From assembly GCA_030447505.1 (NCBI GenBank), contig JAUJOT010000007.1:124001-188000 (forward strand): a DNA stretch of 64,000 bases, in the 5' to 3' direction. The first letter of the stretch is position 1. Every line of letters starts with the position of its first letter. The position numbers and the translations under genes are program-made. The notes below the pieces were generated by a model. That model did not search any database. It worked only from the letters and a program-made list of their open reading frames with translations, and was not told the origin of the DNA. This document shows, in pieces, positions 10,975-20,938 of this stretch. This stretch comes from Solirubrobacteraceae bacterium. Lineage in GTDB: Bacteria > Actinomycetota > Thermoleophilia > Solirubrobacterales > Solirubrobacteraceae.

Positions 10975-11916
10975 TTGACTCCCGCAGCTCCCCGAACCCG
11001 TCGCCGCGTCTTCGCGCTCACGCTGCTCGCGGCGCTGACGGCCGCGCTGGTGCTCGCCGCGGGCGCGTCAGCGGACCTCCTGACGCCGGAATCCGGCGGC
11101 GGATCGGTGAACGCGGAGAACGTCGACACGCTCTACAAGCTCGTCCTCGCGGTCGCCGTCGTCGTCTTCGTCGGCGTCGAGGGCGTGCTGCTCTACTCGC
11201 TGATCAGGTTCCGCGCCCGCAAGGACGCCGTGCCAGCGCAGATCCGCGGCAACACGCGCCTGGAGATCGGCTGGACGCTCGGCGCCGCCGGGATCCTCGT
11301 CATCCTCGCCATCGTGACGTTCGTGATGCTCGACGACATCCGCAACCCGCCGAACTCCGACGCCGACGGCTTCCCGACGCAGCGGATCGCCAACGTCGAG
11401 AACGCCACCGCCTACCAGCCGCGCCCGCCGAACGGCAGGGCGTTGAACATCGAGGTCAACGGTCAGCGCTACATCTGGCGCTACACGTATCCCGACGCCG
11501 ACGACAACGTCCTCAACAACGTCTTCAACTACGAGACCCTCGTCGTCCCCACCAAGACGACGATCACGCTGACGATCAAGGCGCAGGACGTCGTGCACTC
11601 GTGGTGGATCCCGGACCTGGGCGGCAAGGCCGATGCCGTGCCGGGCCACACGAACTTCACCTGGTTCAAGGTGCAGCGGCCGGGCTCGTTCCGCGGCCAG
11701 TGCGCGGAGCTGTGCGGGCGCAACCACGCCGACATGGTCGCGACGGTCGTCGCCGTCGAGCCGGCCGAGTTCAAGAGCTGGCTCGCGAGCAAGAAGCGCG
11801 AGATCGACGCGAACAACAAGGCGGCGCAGCAGCGTCGCGAGGAGGAGTCCGAGGAGCTCCGGGAAGGCGCGAACCCGCGCGGAAGCGGCAACGCCGAGAC
11901 CGCCGAGGGCGAGTAG
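10975..11916 (+). CDS. ctaC: cytochrome c oxidase subunit II (first copy)
   Basis: 313 residues from a TTG start. A hydrophobic signal helix (about 12-36) is followed by two membrane helices (about 45-70 and 95-120) and an external cupredoxin domain with the CuA site: Cys243, Glu245, Cys247, His251 and Met254 in CAELCGRNHADM. It receives electrons from cytochrome c and passes them to subunit I. There is no fused cytochrome c; instead the C-terminus is a highly charged tail of about 45 residues. It lies five bases before ctaD and forms an A1-type pair with it. Confidence 0.93.
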   Translation: MTPAAPRTRRRVFALTLLAALTAALVLAAGASADLLTPESGGGSVNAENVDTLYKLVLAVAVVVFVGVEGVLLYSLIRFRARKDAVPAQIRGNTRLEIGWTLGAAGILVILAIVTFVMLDDIRNPPNSDADGFPTQRIANVENATAYQPRPPNGRALNIEVNGQRYIWRYTYPDADDNVLNNVFNYETLVVPTKTTITLTIKAQDVVHSWWIPDLGGKADAVPGHTNFTWFKVQRPGSFRGQCAELCGRNHADMVATVVAVEPAEFKSWLASKKREIDANNKAAQQRREEESEELREGANPRGSGNAETAEGE

Positions 11917-11921
11917 CAGCC

Positions 11922-13616
11922 ATGGCAGCCACAGACAGAGCCCTCGCGGTCCCCGAGATCACCGCACACAGCGTCGACCCGCAGTCGCGCGGGTGGGTCT
12001 CGTGGGTCACGACGACCGACCACAAGCGGATCGGGATCCTCTACCTCGTCACGACGTTCGCCTTCTTCATCCTGGGCGGCGTCGAGGCGCTGCTCATGCG
12101 CGTGCAGCTCGGCACGCCGGACAACACGTTCCTGACGCCGTCGACGTACAACGCGCTCTTCACGCTGCACGGCACGACGATGATCTTCCTGTTCGTCGTG
12201 CCGATCATGGCCGGCTTCGGCAACTACTTCCTGCCGCTGATGATCGGCGCCCGCGACATGGCGTTCCCGAAGCTCAACGCGCTGTCCTACTGGCTGCTGC
12301 TGTTCGGCGGGATCGTCTTCTACGCCTCGCTGTTCTTCTCACCGCCGGAGGCCGGCTGGACGTCCTATGCGCCGCTGTCGCTCGAGGCGTACTCCGAGAG
12401 CGGCGGCATCGACGCCTGGATCTTCCTGATCCACCTGACCGGCATCTCGTCGCTGATCGGCGCGGTCAACTTCTACGCGACGATCGCCAACATGCGCGCG
12501 CCCGGCATGGGCTGGGGCCGCCTGCCGCTGTTCGTCTGGACGCTGCTCGTCTACGCGATCCTGCTGATCCTCGCGCTGCCCGTGATCGCCGGGGCGGTGA
12601 CGCTGCTGCTCACCGACCGCCACTTCGGCACGGGCTTCTTCGACCAGGGCCAGGGCGGTGATCCGCTGCTGTGGCAGCACCTGTTCTGGTTCTTCGGCCA
12701 CCCCGAGGTCTACATCATGATCCTGCCCGGCTTCGGGATCATCTCCGAGGTCCTGCCCGTCTTCGCGCGCAAGCCGATCTTCGGCTACAAGGCGATCGCC
12801 GCTGCGACCGTCGTGATCGCCTTCCTCGCGCTGCTCGTGTGGGCGCATCACATGTTCACGACGCCGAGCGCGACGATCGTGCTCGTCTTCTTCATGATCA
12901 GCTCCTTCTTGATCGCGATCCCGACGGGCGTGAAGATCTTCAACTGGGTCGCGACGCTGTGGCGCGGGACCGTCGAGTTCAAGACGCCGCTGATCTTCAG
13001 CGTCGGCTTCATCTCCGTGTTCCTGATCGGCGGGATCACGGGCGTGTTCCTCGCGGTCTTCCCGGTCGACTGGCAGCTGCACGACACGTACTTCGTCGTC
13101 GCCCACCTGCACTACGTGCTGGTCGGCGGCTCGGTCTTCGCGATCTTCGCCGGGATCTACTACTGGTTTCCGAAGATGACCGGCCGGATGCTGAGCGAGT
13201 CGATCGGCAAGTGGTCGTTTGCCTTCATGTACATCGGGATCAACGTGACGTTCCTGATCCAGCACTCGATCGGCCTGGAGGGCATGCCGCGGCGCGTCTA
13301 CGAGTACCCCGACGTCGGCAACCTCGCGCTCTACAACCTCATCTCGACGATCGGCTCGTTCATGCTGGCGTTCGGCGTCGGGCTGACCGTGTACGCGGTC
13401 ATCCGCGCCCTTCGAAACGGCGTCAAGGCGGGGCCCGACCCGTGGAAGGCGAACACGCTGGAGTGGTTCGTGCCCTCGCCGCCGCCCGTCAACAACTTCG
13501 ACGTCATCCCGCGCGTGCGCTCGGTCGAGCCGATGAAGGACATCCGCCGGCAGGTGGCGCGCCAGTCCGAGCCGGCCGCCGATCTCAGCCCCGTCGCGGC
13601 CGGAACGCGGGACTAG
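11922..13616 (+). CDS. ctaD: cytochrome c oxidase subunit I, A1-like
   Basis: 564 residues, about 12 membrane helices. Catalytic core of the proton-pumping oxidase. Heme and CuB ligands are seen in TLHGTTMIFLF, GHPEVY (residues 259-264, cross-linked His-Tyr), AHHM and HDTYFVVAHLHYV. Glu262 in GHPEV is the D-channel glutamate that defines A1-type heme-copper oxidases, unlike the second copy. IPTGVKIFNW holds the K-channel Lys. Start chosen at the ATG 5 bases after ctaC. Confidence 0.95.
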   Translation: MAATDRALAVPEITAHSVDPQSRGWVSWVTTTDHKRIGILYLVTTFAFFILGGVEALLMRVQLGTPDNTFLTPSTYNALFTLHGTTMIFLFVVPIMAGFGNYFLPLMIGARDMAFPKLNALSYWLLLFGGIVFYASLFFSPPEAGWTSYAPLSLEAYSESGGIDAWIFLIHLTGISSLIGAVNFYATIANMRAPGMGWGRLPLFVWTLLVYAILLILALPVIAGAVTLLLTDRHFGTGFFDQGQGGDPLLWQHLFWFFGHPEVYIMILPGFGIISEVLPVFARKPIFGYKAIAAATVVIAFLALLVWAHHMFTTPSATIVLVFFMISSFLIAIPTGVKIFNWVATLWRGTVEFKTPLIFSVGFISVFLIGGITGVFLAVFPVDWQLHDTYFVVAHLHYVLVGGSVFAIFAGIYYWFPKMTGRMLSESIGKWSFAFMYIGINVTFLIQHSIGLEGMPRRVYEYPDVGNLALYNLISTIGSFMLAFGVGLTVYAVIRALRNGVKAGPDPWKANTLEWFVPSPPPVNNFDVIPRVRSVEPMKDIRRQVARQSEPAADLSPVAAGTRD

Positions 13617-15016: not shown

Positions 15017-15403
15017 ATGGAGATTCCGATTCAACGTCCTGCCACGGTCCGTCACCGGACGAGCCTGTTCCGCGATGCCGTAGCGATCGTGGAGACGGAA
15101 TACGGCTCCGATCTGTCGCTCGACGAGATCGCCCGACGCGTCGCTTCCTCGCGGCGCCAACTGCAGCGCTCCTACGCCGAGATCGGCAACACGACGTTCC
15201 GCGAGCATCTCACGGCCGTCCGCATGGAGCGCGCAGCAGAGCTGCTCGAGACACGCGGGTTGACCGTGCGTGAGGTGGCGCAGCGGGTGGGCTACCGCCA
15301 GCCCGCGCAGTTCGCCAAGGCGTTTCGCCGCCACCACGGGCTGGCGCCCTCCGCGTTTCGCGACACACGCCGCTTTCGCGGGGCCGCAGCGATCGCCGCC
15401 TGA
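15017..15403 (+). CDS. AraC-family DNA-binding protein, HTH domain only
   Basis: 128 residues, consisting almost wholly of the AraC double helix-turn-helix: LSLDEIARRVASSRRQLQRSY in the first, then TVREVAQRVGYRQPAQFAKAFRRHHGLAPSAFR, the family signature. There is no sensor domain, so it may respond through expression level or a partner. It sits between the two oxidase gene sets in the same orientation and is a candidate regulator of one of them (inference). A GC hairpin follows it. Confidence 0.85.
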   Translation: MEIPIQRPATVRHRTSLFRDAVAIVETEYGSDLSLDEIARRVASSRRQLQRSYAEIGNTTFREHLTAVRMERAAELLETRGLTVREVAQRVGYRQPAQFAKAFRRHHGLAPSAFRDTRRFRGAAAIAA

Positions 15404-15444: not shown

Positions 15445-15516
15445 GAGCGTCGCTGCGCCGGGCGTTGCGGTACCTGATCGCGTTCCTCGTGCGCACCCCA
15501 TAGGATGCCGGGCCGC

Positions 15517-16563
15517 ATGAGGCGGGAACGCAGCCGTGACGAGAAGACGCCGGTCCTGTGGATGGTCATCCACGGCCTGATCGCGTCGGCGATCGGCATC
15601 GGCGTGGGACTGGCGATCGAGTGGTTCCCGGAGCAGGCCTCGACGCAGGCCGATCCGATCGACCACCTCTACGACGTCCTGATCTGGACCTCGGTGCCGG
15701 TGTTCGTGACCGTCACGATCATCGTGCTGTTCAGCGTGCGCAACTTCAAGATGCGCCCCGGCGAGGAGCAGCTCGACGGTCCGCCGATCCACGGCAACAC
15801 GCGCCTGGAGGTCATCTGGACCGCGCTCCCCGCGATCGTCCTCGTCGTCCTGTGCTCGTACGCCTGGATCGTCCTGACCGACATCGAGGAGGCGCAGGCC
15901 AACGAGATGCGGATCAACGTCGTCGGCCAGCAGTTCGCCTGGACGTTCGAGTACCCGCAGGCCGGCGGCAAGCCGATCAAGTCGACGCAGCTGTACCTGC
16001 CCGTGGATCGGCCCGTGCGCTTCTACGTCAAGGCGCTGGACGTCATCCACGACTTCTGGGTTCCGGCATTCCGCATGAAGATCGATGCCGTTCCCGGCAT
16101 CGAGACGAGATACCGGGTGACGCCGAACAGGCTCGGCACCTATCCCGTCGTCTGCGCGGAGCTCTGCGGCCTCGGCCACTCCGTCATGCGCGCGACGACG
16201 CGCGTCGTGACGCCGGCCGAGTTCAACGCGTGGATCGCCGAGCGGAAGGCGCCGGTCGCGGCGACCGCCGACGGCGAGATCGACGGCAAGACGCTCTTCA
16301 CCGAGGGCAACGGCGCCGCCACGGCCTGCAGCGCCTGCCACACGCTCGCCGACGCGGGCTCGCAGAGCCAGACCGGTCCCGATCTCGACGAGGCGCTCGC
16401 GGGCGAGGACGCGGAAGCGATCAGGCAGGGCATCGTCGCGCCCGATGCCGAGATCACGGAGGGCTTCCAGGCGGGGATCATGCCGAAGAACTACGGCGAT
16501 ACGCTCTCCGACAAGGAGCTCGACGCTCTCGTGAAGTACCTCGCCGAGGTCGCCGGCAAGTGA
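15517..16563 (+). CDS. ctaC: cytochrome c oxidase subunit II with fused cytochrome c (caa3 type)
   Basis: 348 residues. Two membrane helices precede the CuA domain, with Cys213, Glu215, Cys217, His221 and Met224. After a linker comes a class I cytochrome c domain with heme motif CSACH at 271-275 and a likely axial Met322. The fusion is the mark of caa3 oxidases, which carry their own electron donor. TAGGAT lies ten bases before the chosen ATG. An ATG four codons earlier overlaps that hexamer, so it is less likely. The gene is 26 bases before its subunit I. Confidence 0.93.
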   Translation: MRRERSRDEKTPVLWMVIHGLIASAIGIGVGLAIEWFPEQASTQADPIDHLYDVLIWTSVPVFVTVTIIVLFSVRNFKMRPGEEQLDGPPIHGNTRLEVIWTALPAIVLVVLCSYAWIVLTDIEEAQANEMRINVVGQQFAWTFEYPQAGGKPIKSTQLYLPVDRPVRFYVKALDVIHDFWVPAFRMKIDAVPGIETRYRVTPNRLGTYPVVCAELCGLGHSVMRATTRVVTPAEFNAWIAERKAPVAATADGEIDGKTLFTEGNGAATACSACHTLADAGSQSQTGPDLDEALAGEDAEAIRQGIVAPDAEITEGFQAGIMPKNYGDTLSDKELDALVKYLAEVAGK

Positions 16564-16589: not shown

Positions 16590-18515
16590 ATGGTCGCCAG
16601 GCTGCGCGGACCCGGAATGATCAGGGCCGCTCTGGGCACCGCGCTCGGGATCGCGGTCTCGTACGTGATCATCTTCATCATGCGGTCCTGGTACGACCTG
16701 GACCCGGTGCTCGACGGCTTCGCGGTGCTCGAGCTCTCCCTGTTCCTCGCGCCGATCGGCTTCCTGATCGGGCTTGGCGCGTTCGACTACTGGTTCCACT
16801 ACATGTCGGGGCGTCCGACACGGCCGGAGGATCACTCGGGCCACGGCGCGAAGACGTGGCGCGACTACTTCCGCGTCAATACCGACCACAAGGTCATCGG
16901 CATCCAGTACGTCGTGACCTCGTTCTTCTTCTTCTTCGTCGGCGGGCTGTTCGCGATGCTGATGCGCGCCGAGCTCGCCCAGCCCGGGCGCCAGTTCGTC
17001 GACCCGAACACGTTCAACGGCCTGTTCAGCGTCCACGCGTCGCTGCTGATCTTCCTGTTCATCATCCCGGTCTTCGCCGGCCTGGCGAACTACGTGCTGC
17101 CGCTGATGATCGGCGCGCCGGACATGATCTTCCCGCGCCTGAACGCGCTGTCGTTCTGGATGCTGCCGCTCGCCGGGATCATGATGCTGATGTCGTTCGC
17201 GGCGCCGGGCGGCTCGTTCGCGAGCGGATGGACGGCGTACGCCCCGCTCTCTGTGACAGCGCCCGAAGGGCAGGTCTTCTTCACGATCGGCGTGCAGTTC
17301 GCCGGCGCGTCCTCGATCGCGACGGCGCTGAACTTCCTGGCGACGATCATCACGATGCGCGCGCCCGGGATGAGCTTCTTCCGGATGCCGCTGCTCGTGT
17401 GGGCGAACTTCTCGACGTCGCTGCTCGTCGTCATCGCGACGCCGTTCATCGCCGTCTCGCAGTTCATGGTCCTGTTCGACCGCTCGCTGGGCTTCAACTT
17501 CTTCGATCCCGTCGACGGCGGCGACGTGCTGATGTACCAGCACATCTTCTGGTTCTACTCGCATCCGGCGGTCTACATCATGATGCTGCCCGGGTTCGGG
17601 ATCATCTCGGAGATCATCGCCGTGAAGTCGCGAAAGCCGATCTTCGGCTACCGCATGATGGCCTTCTCCCTGCTGGCGATCGTCGTGCTGGGCTTCACGG
17701 TCTGGGCGCACCACATGTTCGTCTCCGGCATGCAGGACTGGATCCGCGTCCCGATGATGATCACGACGGCGATCATCGCGGTGCCGACCGGGATCAAGAT
17801 CTTCTCCTGGCTGGCCACGCTGTGGCGCGGCGTGCTGCACCTCGACACGCCGATGCTGTTCGCACTGGGCTTCCTGTCGATGTTCACGCTCGGCGGGATC
17901 TCCGGCGTGATGCTCGCGATCATCCCGGTGACGATCCACGTCAGCGACACGTACTTCATCGTCGCCCACATCCACTACGTGCTGTTCGGCGGCTCGCTGC
18001 TGACGATCTTCGCCGGCGTGTACTACTGGTTCCCGAAGATGACGGGCCGGATGTACGACGAGCGCCTGGGCAAGCTGCACTTCTGGACGACGTTCATCTT
18101 CTTCAACGCGACCTTCGCCCCGATGCACATCATCGGCGTCCAGGGCATGCCGCGCCGGGTCGCCGACTACGCCGAGGAGTGGGCGGGCTGGAACCTGGCG
18201 ATCTCGATCATGAGCTTCTTCCTCGGCGTCAGCGCGCTCATCTTCGCCTACAACATGATCGCGTCCTGGCGCGGCGGCCCGCGCGCGGAGTCCAACCCGT
18301 GGCGCGCGCTCACGATCGAGTGGCAGGTCTCCTCGCCGCCGCCGATCTTCAACTTCGACTCGCTGCCGACCGTCGTCGGGGGGCCGTACGAGTACGGCGT
18401 CCCGGGCGCCGTCCACGCCGTGTTCAAGGATGCCGAGGTTCCGCAGCCGGCCGGCGCGACCGCCTCGGGCGCGGGCCGTGGCCACGGCTCCGGTAGCGCC
18501 GAGGACAAGGAGTAG
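16590..18515 (+). CDS. ctaD: cytochrome c oxidase subunit I, A2-like (second copy)
   Basis: 641 residues, about 14 membrane helices. An N-terminal extension of about 90 residues carries two additional helices before the usual core. Heme-copper ligands are present in FSVHASLLIFLF, the HPAVY pair, AHHM and SDTYFIVAHIHYV. The segment at 323-329 is YSHPAVY: the A1 glutamate is Ala327 and Tyr323-Ser324 precede the His, the signature of A2-type oxidases. A tail of about 60 residues rich in Gly, Ala and Pro ends the protein. Shares subunit III and heme O synthase genes with the first pair. Confidence 0.93.
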   Translation: MVARLRGPGMIRAALGTALGIAVSYVIIFIMRSWYDLDPVLDGFAVLELSLFLAPIGFLIGLGAFDYWFHYMSGRPTRPEDHSGHGAKTWRDYFRVNTDHKVIGIQYVVTSFFFFFVGGLFAMLMRAELAQPGRQFVDPNTFNGLFSVHASLLIFLFIIPVFAGLANYVLPLMIGAPDMIFPRLNALSFWMLPLAGIMMLMSFAAPGGSFASGWTAYAPLSVTAPEGQVFFTIGVQFAGASSIATALNFLATIITMRAPGMSFFRMPLLVWANFSTSLLVVIATPFIAVSQFMVLFDRSLGFNFFDPVDGGDVLMYQHIFWFYSHPAVYIMMLPGFGIISEIIAVKSRKPIFGYRMMAFSLLAIVVLGFTVWAHHMFVSGMQDWIRVPMMITTAIIAVPTGIKIFSWLATLWRGVLHLDTPMLFALGFLSMFTLGGISGVMLAIIPVTIHVSDTYFIVAHIHYVLFGGSLLTIFAGVYYWFPKMTGRMYDERLGKLHFWTTFIFFNATFAPMHIIGVQGMPRRVADYAEEWAGWNLAISIMSFFLGVSALIFAYNMIASWRGGPRAESNPWRALTIEWQVSSPPPIFNFDSLPTVVGGPYEYGVPGAVHAVFKDAEVPQPAGATASGAGRGHGSGSAEDKE

Positions 18516-18521
18516 GCGCCG

Positions 18522-19358
18522 ATGTCGAAGCACATCCTCGTGGTCGCCAACGAGACGATCGGCGGAGCAAAGCTGCTCGACGTCGTGCGCGAGCGCGCGC
18601 AGGAGCCCGACACGAGCTTCACCCTCGTCGTGCCGATGACGCGCCCGCGGTCGGGCTACGTGATCTACGACGACGCCGTGCGCGACGCGGCGCAGGTGCG
18701 CCTCGACCTCGCGCTGTCCTACCTGCGCGGTGAGGACATCGTCGCCGGGGGCGAGATCGGCGACGAGGACCCCTACACGGCGACGCTCGACGCGATCAGC
18801 GAGTACCGCCCCGACGAGGTCATCATCTCGACGCTGCCGCTGGCGTCGTCCGGCTGGCTGCGACGCGACCTCGTCGAGCGCATCCAGGACAGCTGCGACG
18901 TGCCGATCACGCACATCGTCTCCGACATCGACGCCGAGGGGCTGCCGTTCGAGGTGACGCTCGTCGTCGCCAACGTCACCGCCGGCCGCGGCACGCTGCG
19001 CGCTCGCATGAAGGAGATCGCGGCCGAGGCCGACGACATGCTCTTCATCGTCGTCGTGCCGCTGCAGGCGCATCGCGACGGGCGGGCGGCAGCGGTCGCG
19101 CGCGCGCGGCTGGGCAACACGCTCGACAGGATGCGCCGCGAGGGGCTGCTCGTCGCGGGGATGATCGGCGACCCCGACCCCTACACCGCGACGATGAACG
19201 CGTTGCAGTTCTACCGCGTCTCGCGGATCGTGATCTCGACGCTGCCGGTCACGCGCTCGGGCTGGATGCGCTCCAATCTCGTCGAGCGCCTGAGCAAGGC
19301 GACCAACATCGAGGTCGAGCACGTCATCGCCGAGCAGCAGGCGGAGGTGTCGGGCTGA
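18522..19358 (+). CDS. tandem-domain protein of unknown function in the oxidase operon (USP-like fold?)
   Basis: 278 residues built from two homologous halves, about 1-140 and 144-278. Each half begins with a strand ending in VVAN, then carries IGDxDPYTAT, a Tyr-Arg pair, IISTLP or VISTLP, and SGWxRxxLVER. The alternating pattern fits a Rossmann-like or universal-stress-protein-like fold, but no ATP-binding GxxGxxxS loop is visible. It starts six bases after ctaD and its TGA overlaps the ATG of ctaE, so it is translated within the operon. Function unknown; oxidase assembly or sensing is a guess from position. Confidence 0.75.
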   Translation: MSKHILVVANETIGGAKLLDVVRERAQEPDTSFTLVVPMTRPRSGYVIYDDAVRDAAQVRLDLALSYLRGEDIVAGGEIGDEDPYTATLDAISEYRPDEVIISTLPLASSGWLRRDLVERIQDSCDVPITHIVSDIDAEGLPFEVTLVVANVTAGRGTLRARMKEIAAEADDMLFIVVVPLQAHRDGRAAAVARARLGNTLDRMRREGLLVAGMIGDPDPYTATMNALQFYRVSRIVISTLPVTRSGWMRSNLVERLSKATNIEVEHVIAEQQAEVSG

Positions 19359-19999
19359 TGGAAGCCGGGAGCATCAGCGCGGGGATCGCGCTCGACCACC
19401 ACGACGACCACCACGACGACCACCACGGGCCGCCGATGGCCAACCGCAGCTCGCGCGTCTCGCACGAGATCCTCGGGATGCTGCTTTTCATCATCTCCGA
19501 GATCATGGTCTTCGGGGCCTTCTTCACGGCGTACTTCTTCATCAGACTGGTCGCGGAAGGTCACCGGTGGTTCCCCTTCGAGGGCTTCGAGCTGCCTGTC
19601 GCGATCGCCGGCATGAACACCGCGATCCTGCTCAGCTCCTCGCTGACGATGCACTGGGCGCAGACGTCGATCAAGAACGGCAACCGCTTCGGACTGAAGG
19701 CCGGGATGCTGCTGACGTCGCTGCTCGGCCTGACGTTCCTCTTCATCCAGATCAACGAGTACGTCCACATCGGGTTCTCGCCGCAGGACCACGCGCAGGG
19801 CACGATCTTCTACGGGCTGACGGGCCTGCACGGCGCGCACGTGTTCGTCGGGCTGACGCTGCTCGTCATGGTCACGGTACGCGCGTTCCGCGGCCACTTC
19901 ACCCCCGAGCACCATCACGGCGTCGAGGTCCCGGGCATCTACTGGCACTTCGTCGACGTGATGTGGATCGTCGTCTACACCGCGATCTACATCGTCTAG
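19358..19999 (+). CDS. ctaE: cytochrome c oxidase subunit III
   Basis: 213 residues, five predicted membrane helices, the short form found in actinobacteria and bacilli. Conserved marks are IMVFGAFFTAYFFIRL near 48-63 and the late FHGLHGxHV-like GLTGLHGAHVFVGL and YWHFVDVMWIVVY. The N-terminus before the first helix has a His/Asp-rich repeat (DHHDDHHDDHHG) that is not part of the usual subunit. It overlaps the preceding gene by one base and is the only subunit III in the window, so both oxidases may share it. Confidence 0.93.
   Translation: MEAGSISAGIALDHHDDHHDDHHGPPMANRSSRVSHEILGMLLFIISEIMVFGAFFTAYFFIRLVAEGHRWFPFEGFELPVAIAGMNTAILLSSSLTMHWAQTSIKNGNRFGLKAGMLLTSLLGLTFLFIQINEYVHIGFSPQDHAQGTIFYGLTGLHGAHVFVGLTLLVMVTVRAFRGHFTPEHHHGVEVPGIYWHFVDVMWIVVYTAIYIV
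19396..19429 (+). repeat. 12-base tandem repeat encoding His/Asp motif
   Basis: CCACCACGACGA occurs twice in tandem and then in part a third time (CCACCACGGG), encoding the His-His-Asp-Asp run at the start of CtaE. Confidence 0.8.
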
Positions 20000-20003
20000 C
20001 CCG

Positions 20004-20111
20004 TTGCGCCCGCCGTGGGAGTCCGAGCAGGCGGCGTTCGCGTTCCTTCTGCGCGTGCTCGCGGTCTGTATCGCGATCGCGCTGCTCGCCGTCGTGCTGA
20101 AAGCGCTCTGA
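20004..20111 (+). CDS. 35-residue single-helix membrane protein after ctaE
   Basis: Starts at TTG four bases after the ctaE stop. It reads RPPWESEQAAFAFLLRV and then a hydrophobic helix rich in Leu, Val, Ala and Ile, ending KAL. A short charged head and one membrane helix fit a small oxidase-associated subunit or assembly peptide. The TTG start and tiny size make this tentative; the placement directly behind ctaE and the lack of an alternative product argue for it. Confidence 0.55.
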   Translation: MRPPWESEQAAFAFLLRVLAVCIAIALLAVVLKAL

Positions 20112-20194: not shown

Positions 20195-20938
20195 CTACTT
20201 GACGGTGAGCGTGCCCTCCATGCCACCCTCGCGATGCCCCGCGACCGTGCAGTAGTACTGGTACTCGCCCGGCTTCAGCGTCACGCTGATCGTCGAGACG
20301 CCGCCATCCTGCACCACCTCGCCCTTCTCGCTGACGCCGTTGCCCTCGAGCGCGATGTCGTGCGGGATCGAGGACGCGTTCTTGGACTCGATCTCGAGCG
20401 CGCCGGTGGGCGCCGTCGCCTGCTTGGTGACGTATGCCAGCTGGCCGTTGGGATCTGCGGGAATCGAGAGCGTGCCGTTCTTCGCCGCGACCGGCTTGCC
20501 GGCCCCGGCTGCCGGGATGGCCGTCGCGAGCTTGCCCGTGTCCTTGCCCGGCCGCGCTGCGACCGCGGCGACATATGCCGCGACATCGCTTGCGAGCTCG
20601 CCGGTGACGAGATCGCCCGGCATGTAGGCAGGGCTGTCCTTCGGCACGTCGGCGGGATAGGCGATCTGGTCGCGGACGACGCCCTGGATCGTGCCGCGCC
20701 CGAAGCCCTCGCTCAGCGCCTGGCGGAAGGACGCGTCCAGGTCCGGTCCCGTGACGCCCTTGGCGTTCGCGCGGGCGAGCACGTGACACGAGCTGCACTT
20801 CTGCGCGAAGGCCTTCTTACCGGCGATCAGGTTGGCGTTCTCGCTCACGCCCTCGCTACCACAGGCGCTCAGGCCGGCGGCCAGCAGCCCGCACGCGGCA
20901 ACGCCCAGAAGTCTCGTCCTGACGGATGCATGGCTCAT
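20195..20938 (-). CDS. lipoprotein with cytochrome c and cupredoxin domains
   Basis: 247 residues. The signal peptide ends in a lipobox (LSAC, Cys at about 26). A class I cytochrome c domain follows with heme motif CSSCH near residue 48, and the C-terminal half is a plastocyanin-like domain with the type 1 copper ligands in SIPHDIA and in CTVAGHREGGM. An extracytoplasmic, membrane-anchored electron carrier; feeding the neighbouring oxidases is likely from context. It faces the oxidase operon from the opposite strand with TAGACT 11 bases before the ATG. Confidence 0.88.
   Translation of the reverse strand: MSHASVRTRLLGVAACGLLAAGLSACGSEGVSENANLIAGKKAFAQKCSSCHVLARANAKGVTGPDLDASFRQALSEGFGRGTIQGVVRDQIAYPADVPKDSPAYMPGDLVTGELASDVAAYVAAVAARPGKDTGKLATAIPAAGAGKPVAAKNGTLSIPADPNGQLAYVTKQATAPTGALEIESKNASSIPHDIALEGNGVSEKGEVVQDGGVSTISVTLKPGEYQYYCTVAGHREGGMEGTLTVK

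Follow-up and report, generated by a model that had tools for sequence, protein, structure and literature searches.

A two-domain protein encoded between oxidase subunits I and III

The window analyzed here is a 64,000-nucleotide stretch of a Solirubrobacteraceae genome (class Thermoleophilia; GenBank assembly GCA_030447505.1, contig JAUJOT010000007.1, positions 124,001 to 188,000), and our subject is a 278-amino acid protein with two universal stress protein (USP)-like domains, encoded in an oxidase operon between ctaD2 (subunit I) and ctaE (subunit III) (Table 1). Six bases separate the end of ctaD2 (18515) from the tandem open reading frame (ORF), and the TGA of the tandem gene (19356-19358) has one base, an A, in common with the ATG of ctaE at 19358. 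Subunit II, encoded upstream by ctaC2, carries a cytochrome c domain, and the oxidase is therefore caa3-like. The tandem gene is under purifying selection, with a ratio of nonsynonymous to synonymous substitution rates (dN/dS) of about 0.22-0.35 against three close relatives.

Table 1. The tandem gene, its domains and motifs, and the adjoining oxidase genes in the window
Feature	Position	Strand	Evidence or remark
ctaC2, oxidase subunit II with C-terminal cytochrome c domain (caa3-like)	15505..16563	+	
ctaD2, oxidase subunit I	16590..18515	+	COX1 PF00115, E = 6.6e-157; fused at its C-terminus in family f5
Tandem USP-like protein, 278 amino acids (subject of this study)	18522..19358	+	ATG at 18522; TGA ends at 19358
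N-terminal USP-like domain, residues 3-133	18528..18920	+	AlphaFold2 secondary structure; structural matches to model range 1-140
IGDEDPYTAT motif, first half, residues 79-88	18756..18785	+	Translation; conserved in the alignment of relatives
C-terminal USP-like domain, residues 144-270	18951..19331	+	AlphaFold2 model; 2iel aligned to 144-270, Z = 18.7
IGDPDPYTAT motif, second half, residues 215-224	19164..19193	+	Translation; conserved in the alignment of relatives
ctaE, oxidase subunit III	19358..19999	+	COX3 PF00510, E = 2.4e-41
Small ORF, 35 amino acids, one membrane span (LRPPWESEQAAFAFLLRVLAVCIAIALLAVVLKAL)	20004..20111	+	TTG start; right after ctaE

The two halves of the protein share 39% identity over 135 residues (E = 4e-29), far beyond chance. 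Each half carries the same series of motifs, namely VVAN (residues 7-10 and 148-151), the IGDxDPYTAT motif, IISTLP or VISTLP, and SGWLRRDLVER or SGWMRSNLVER in the first and second half, respectively. An earlier note on this DNA, made from the sequence alone, had described both the one-base overlap with ctaE and the repeated order of the four motifs; the ORF coordinates bear out the former, and the translation and half-to-half alignment the latter. In a tree of 239 domains, the N halves and the C halves formed separate groups (support for the C group, which includes a few copies from cut loci, 0.87), and the tandem therefore arose by one duplication that is older than the families. The motifs were not retained evenly: STLP/SGW has been lost from the second domain in family f5 and from the first domain in family f3.

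Fold and relatives of the tandem protein

The AlphaFold2 model of the tandem protein, built with 53 natural relatives in the alignment, consisted of two beta-alpha domains (predicted local distance difference test [pLDDT], 92.9; predicted template modeling score [pTM], 0.88). It matched TT0030 of Thermus thermophilus (2iel; Z = 18.7 over 126 residues, 2.3 Å, 29% identity), and many universal stress proteins matched with Z scores of 12-13.5 over 117-129 residues, so that the USP-like fold, earlier only a guess, is confirmed by the model and its structural matches. TT0030 is also the only solved homolog found by sequence (phmmer, 7.4e-8; profile, 1.1e-14), and the protein thus belongs to the TT0030-like family by both sequence homology and fold. 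The likeness extends to the motifs (VVA..T, GD..P, STLP...S.WLR.D); TT0030, however, has one domain and is uncharacterized. No Pfam or NCBIfam model scored above its cut-off on the whole tandem protein. The earlier statement that the motif belongs to no named family therefore stands with respect to these collections, whereas the same motif set does occur in a protein of solved structure.

Matches to the universal stress protein family PF00582 were weak or absent. At the gathering cut-off of 24 bits there was no whole-protein match, and the first half reached 13.7 bits (E = 0.093); nine of the 53 relatives matched at an E value of 0.01 or better (best, 7.8e-7), and one third-copy domain of family f7 scored 24.4 bits. 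Matches to T2SSL, S-methyl-5'-thioinosine phosphorylase, and beta-fructofuranosidase were dismissed as chance level. The motif G-2X-G-9X-G-S/T, which marks adenosine triphosphate (ATP)-binding USPs, was found in none of the 53 aligned tandem proteins; the stretch at its position reads STLP...SGWLRRDL. Other tandem USPs, such as UspE, Rv2623, TTHA0350, and AF1760, likewise hold two USP folds per chain and matched single domains of the model (Z = 9-13.5), but our protein differs from them in the missing ATP motif, in its weak or absent PF00582 match, and in its fixed place within an oxidase operon. Two ATP molecules are bound by TTHA0350 although one of its halves is degenerate (PMC3673472), and a degenerate motif is thus compatible with nucleotide binding.

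The tandem form is tied to the oxidase operon

We surveyed a sample of genomes, some of which were counted twice because they are present in two collections. Exactly two USP domains lay between ctaD2 and ctaE at 108 loci from five families, and no locus among those fetched had one or three. Among 61 relatives, each full-length tandem match had a COX3 match as its same-strand neighbor, with one case divided between two contigs. The single tandem match from outside the class, in genome G321 (locus L107), lay inside a complete Solirubrobacteraceae-like oxidase operon; contamination of the metagenome-assembled genome, or else transfer of the operon as a whole, is the best explanation, the former being the more probable, and the match was rejected as a true out-of-class tandem.

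Single-domain relatives occurred here and there throughout the phylum (matches in 54 of 246 genomes at an E value of 1e-9, tandem carriers of the class included), and the window's own genome has one beside a sigma-factor gene. Outside the class, no oxidase genes were found near single-domain relatives at the fetched loci (L108-L114). The motif itself is not oxidase-specific, because single-domain homologs are common away from oxidase genes. For the tandem form, the earlier description of a protein locked into the operon holds across the class; homologs far from oxidases, which the earlier note had named as counting against that description, do exist as single domains, whereas the full-length tandems all stand beside ctaE.

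A canonical USP was observed in a different oxidase operon, that of family f8, where it lies beside ctaB/ctaC (locus L136, 384-809) with an intact ATP motif and a PF00582 match of 7.7e-27. It represents a second link between a USP and an oxidase; the USPs beside ctaB/ctaC at loci L137, L139, and L140 of the same family were weak profile matches only.

Fusions to membrane proteins of the operon

In family f5, which belongs to the same class, ctaD reads in frame and without a stop through both USP-like domains at all 21 loci, which come from several genera. Thirteen of them were read out in full and yielded fusion proteins 890-924 amino acids long. The conserved CtaD tail VVGGPYQYGIPxARHAV leads, after about 20 residues, into the first USP-like domain. 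This is a Rosetta-stone fusion at the C-terminus of CtaD, and it is new here. A fusion was counted only if ctaD and the domains lay in one frame without a stop; apparent fusions in families f1, f3, and f7 (open frames of up to about 1,200 amino acids) were rejected as open stretches in other frames of DNA with a high guanine-cytosine content.

The tandem of family f7 is a separate gene in the usual place, and a third USP-like domain was found downstream of ctaE in 16 loci, in most of them in an open frame continuous with a preceding two-span membrane segment (NPFRSEAxAFRFL...). Taken together, the CtaD fusion of f5 and the membrane-segment fusion of f7 indicate that USP-like domains have been attached to membrane proteins of the oxidase operon in two ways. 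Stand-alone homologs of the two-span segment follow ctaE in many Solirubrobacteraceae loci. The 35-residue ORF of the window resembles, by eye, the membrane part that bears the third domain in f7, and proteins of this type were detected with a profile behind ctaE in close relatives; the small membrane protein at this position may be a small oxidase subunit.

In the AlphaFold2 model of a natural CtaD fusion, the domains folded well and CtaD was formed by 14 long helices. Under the positive-inside rule, lysine and arginine residues in the CtaD loops were distributed 18 inside to 2 outside at locus L092 and 15 to 3 in the window. These charges favor a cytosolic C-terminus of CtaD, and the USP-like domains therefore face the cytosol.

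A probable accessory module of the oxidase

The usual picture of a bacterial heme-copper oxidase is that of a minimal core lacking the regulatory subunits found in its mitochondrial counterpart. Our data indicate that the tandem protein is probably a stoichiometric, cytosolic accessory or regulatory module of the caa3-type cytochrome c oxidase of Thermoleophilia. As is characteristic of an oxidase accessory subunit, its gene either keeps a fixed place in the oxidase operon or is joined to that of a core subunit, and a physical, stoichiometric association with the oxidase is likely; that the purpose of the tandem is ligand-responsive regulation has somewhat less than an even chance. In the proposed mechanism, two TT0030-type domains in one chain would be produced in parallel with subunits I and III and would dock at the cytosolic C-terminus of subunit I, the separate protein presumably binding the oxidase there as the fused one is placed. 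The pocket that is conserved at the nucleotide site of the USP fold (VVAN, GDxDP, STLP..SGWLR) might then sense a small ligand or the state of the cell, and such sensing could adjust the activity, oligomerization, or stability of the oxidase.

Several observations weigh against this interpretation. The same oxidase occurs without the tandem at six loci, where ctaE directly follows ctaD2 (L081-L084, L130, and L106; G029, a 1.7-Mb genome of the window's family, three members of family f4, one of f7, and one of f10), and the domain is therefore dispensable for the basic oxidase reaction. With the canonical ATP motif absent, any ligand is only putative. The docking surface is likewise putative, since the fusion model leaves the placement of the domains unfixed (pTM, 0.59; pLDDT of about 30 in the linker, residues 588-643). 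What fusion and gene order attest, moreover, is association rather than function. One half has also lost its motif in each of two lineages (the C half in f5 and the N half in f3); this loss suggests either that a single intact site suffices or that the two sites differ in importance.

A pure scaffold role is a real rival, although we consider it rather unlikely. The USP pseudo-dimer would pair with another tandem and thereby join two oxidases, or an oxidase and complex III, with no sensing involved. Tandem USPs do form dimers of tandems (PMC3673472), and both the degenerate nucleotide motif and the decay of one half in lineages that nevertheless retain the domain would fit this role. Against it, the GDxDP and STLP..SGW pocket motifs are strongly conserved in the separate, unfused tandem forms, and they also occur in the scattered single-domain relatives and in 2iel, which suggests that a ligand site has been kept.

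The earlier note had suggested an assembly or regulatory factor. A dedicated assembly factor would bind nascent CtaD on its cytosolic face, aid cofactor insertion or the joining of subunit III, and then depart. The position of the gene between ctaD and ctaE, overlapping the start of ctaE in the window, and its retention in the large families agree with such a factor, but a transient role is ill-suited to a permanent CtaD fusion at 21 loci and to a third copy fused to a small membrane protein in f7, and oxidases without the tandem exist. The permanent fusion favors an accessory subunit, and we regard a dedicated assembly or maturation factor as improbable. An ordinary general stress protein, co-transcribed with the oxidase by chance and without a physical link, is very improbable: its single-domain relatives do occur far from oxidases, but the invariable two-domain insertion at one point across the class and the two different fusions to operon membrane proteins speak against it.

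An accessory module of this kind has counterparts among other membrane systems. TeaD with TeaABC, the USP domain of KdpD, and the C-terminal domains of KCC/NKCC/NCC transporters are cytosolic USP-fold modules beside or fused to a membrane protein, and all were among the structural matches of the tandem model; none of them, however, is joined to a heme-copper oxidase. An action of such modules on membrane proteins is known for TeaD with TeaABC, KdpD, and Rv2623 with Rv1747 (PMC5549992). A literature search that covered few subscription journals returned nothing relevant on USPs linked to ctaD/ctaE, caa3, or heme-copper oxidases.

The tandem suggests that, within one class of soil actinobacteria, the oxygen-reducing enzyme has a cytosolic part not described before, which may be a sensor. 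With its conserved pocket and its natural fusion to the catalytic subunit, this soluble fold makes the idea of a control domain belonging to a bacterial oxidase concrete and testable, and the natural fusions ease such testing in that the domain cannot simply dissociate during purification. A role is also suggested for part of an uncharacterized family with a solved structure (2iel). More tentatively, the oxidase might carry built-in cytosolic USP-fold sensors, two at subunit I and in family f7 a third on a small membrane subunit, across much of the class, through which a nucleotide or other metabolite would directly tune oxygen reduction and proton pumping. If this is true, a parallel to the allosteric regulation described for the mitochondrial oxidase would have evolved independently in these bacteria.

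Neighboring genes

A second subunit II/I pair (ctaC1, ctaD1) lies upstream of ctaB (10975-13616, + strand). The whole genome gave one COX3 match despite the two pairs, and the ctaC1/ctaD1 oxidase either shares ctaE or has no subunit III. A gene for a stand-alone AraC-type helix-turn-helix protein (15017-15403, + strand) lies between the two sets of oxidase genes, at a position kept in many relatives. After the oxidase operon, in opposite orientation, follows a gene whose product combines a cytochrome c domain with a cupredoxin domain at the C-terminus (20195-20938, - strand); this arrangement is conserved in most Solirubrobacteraceae loci.
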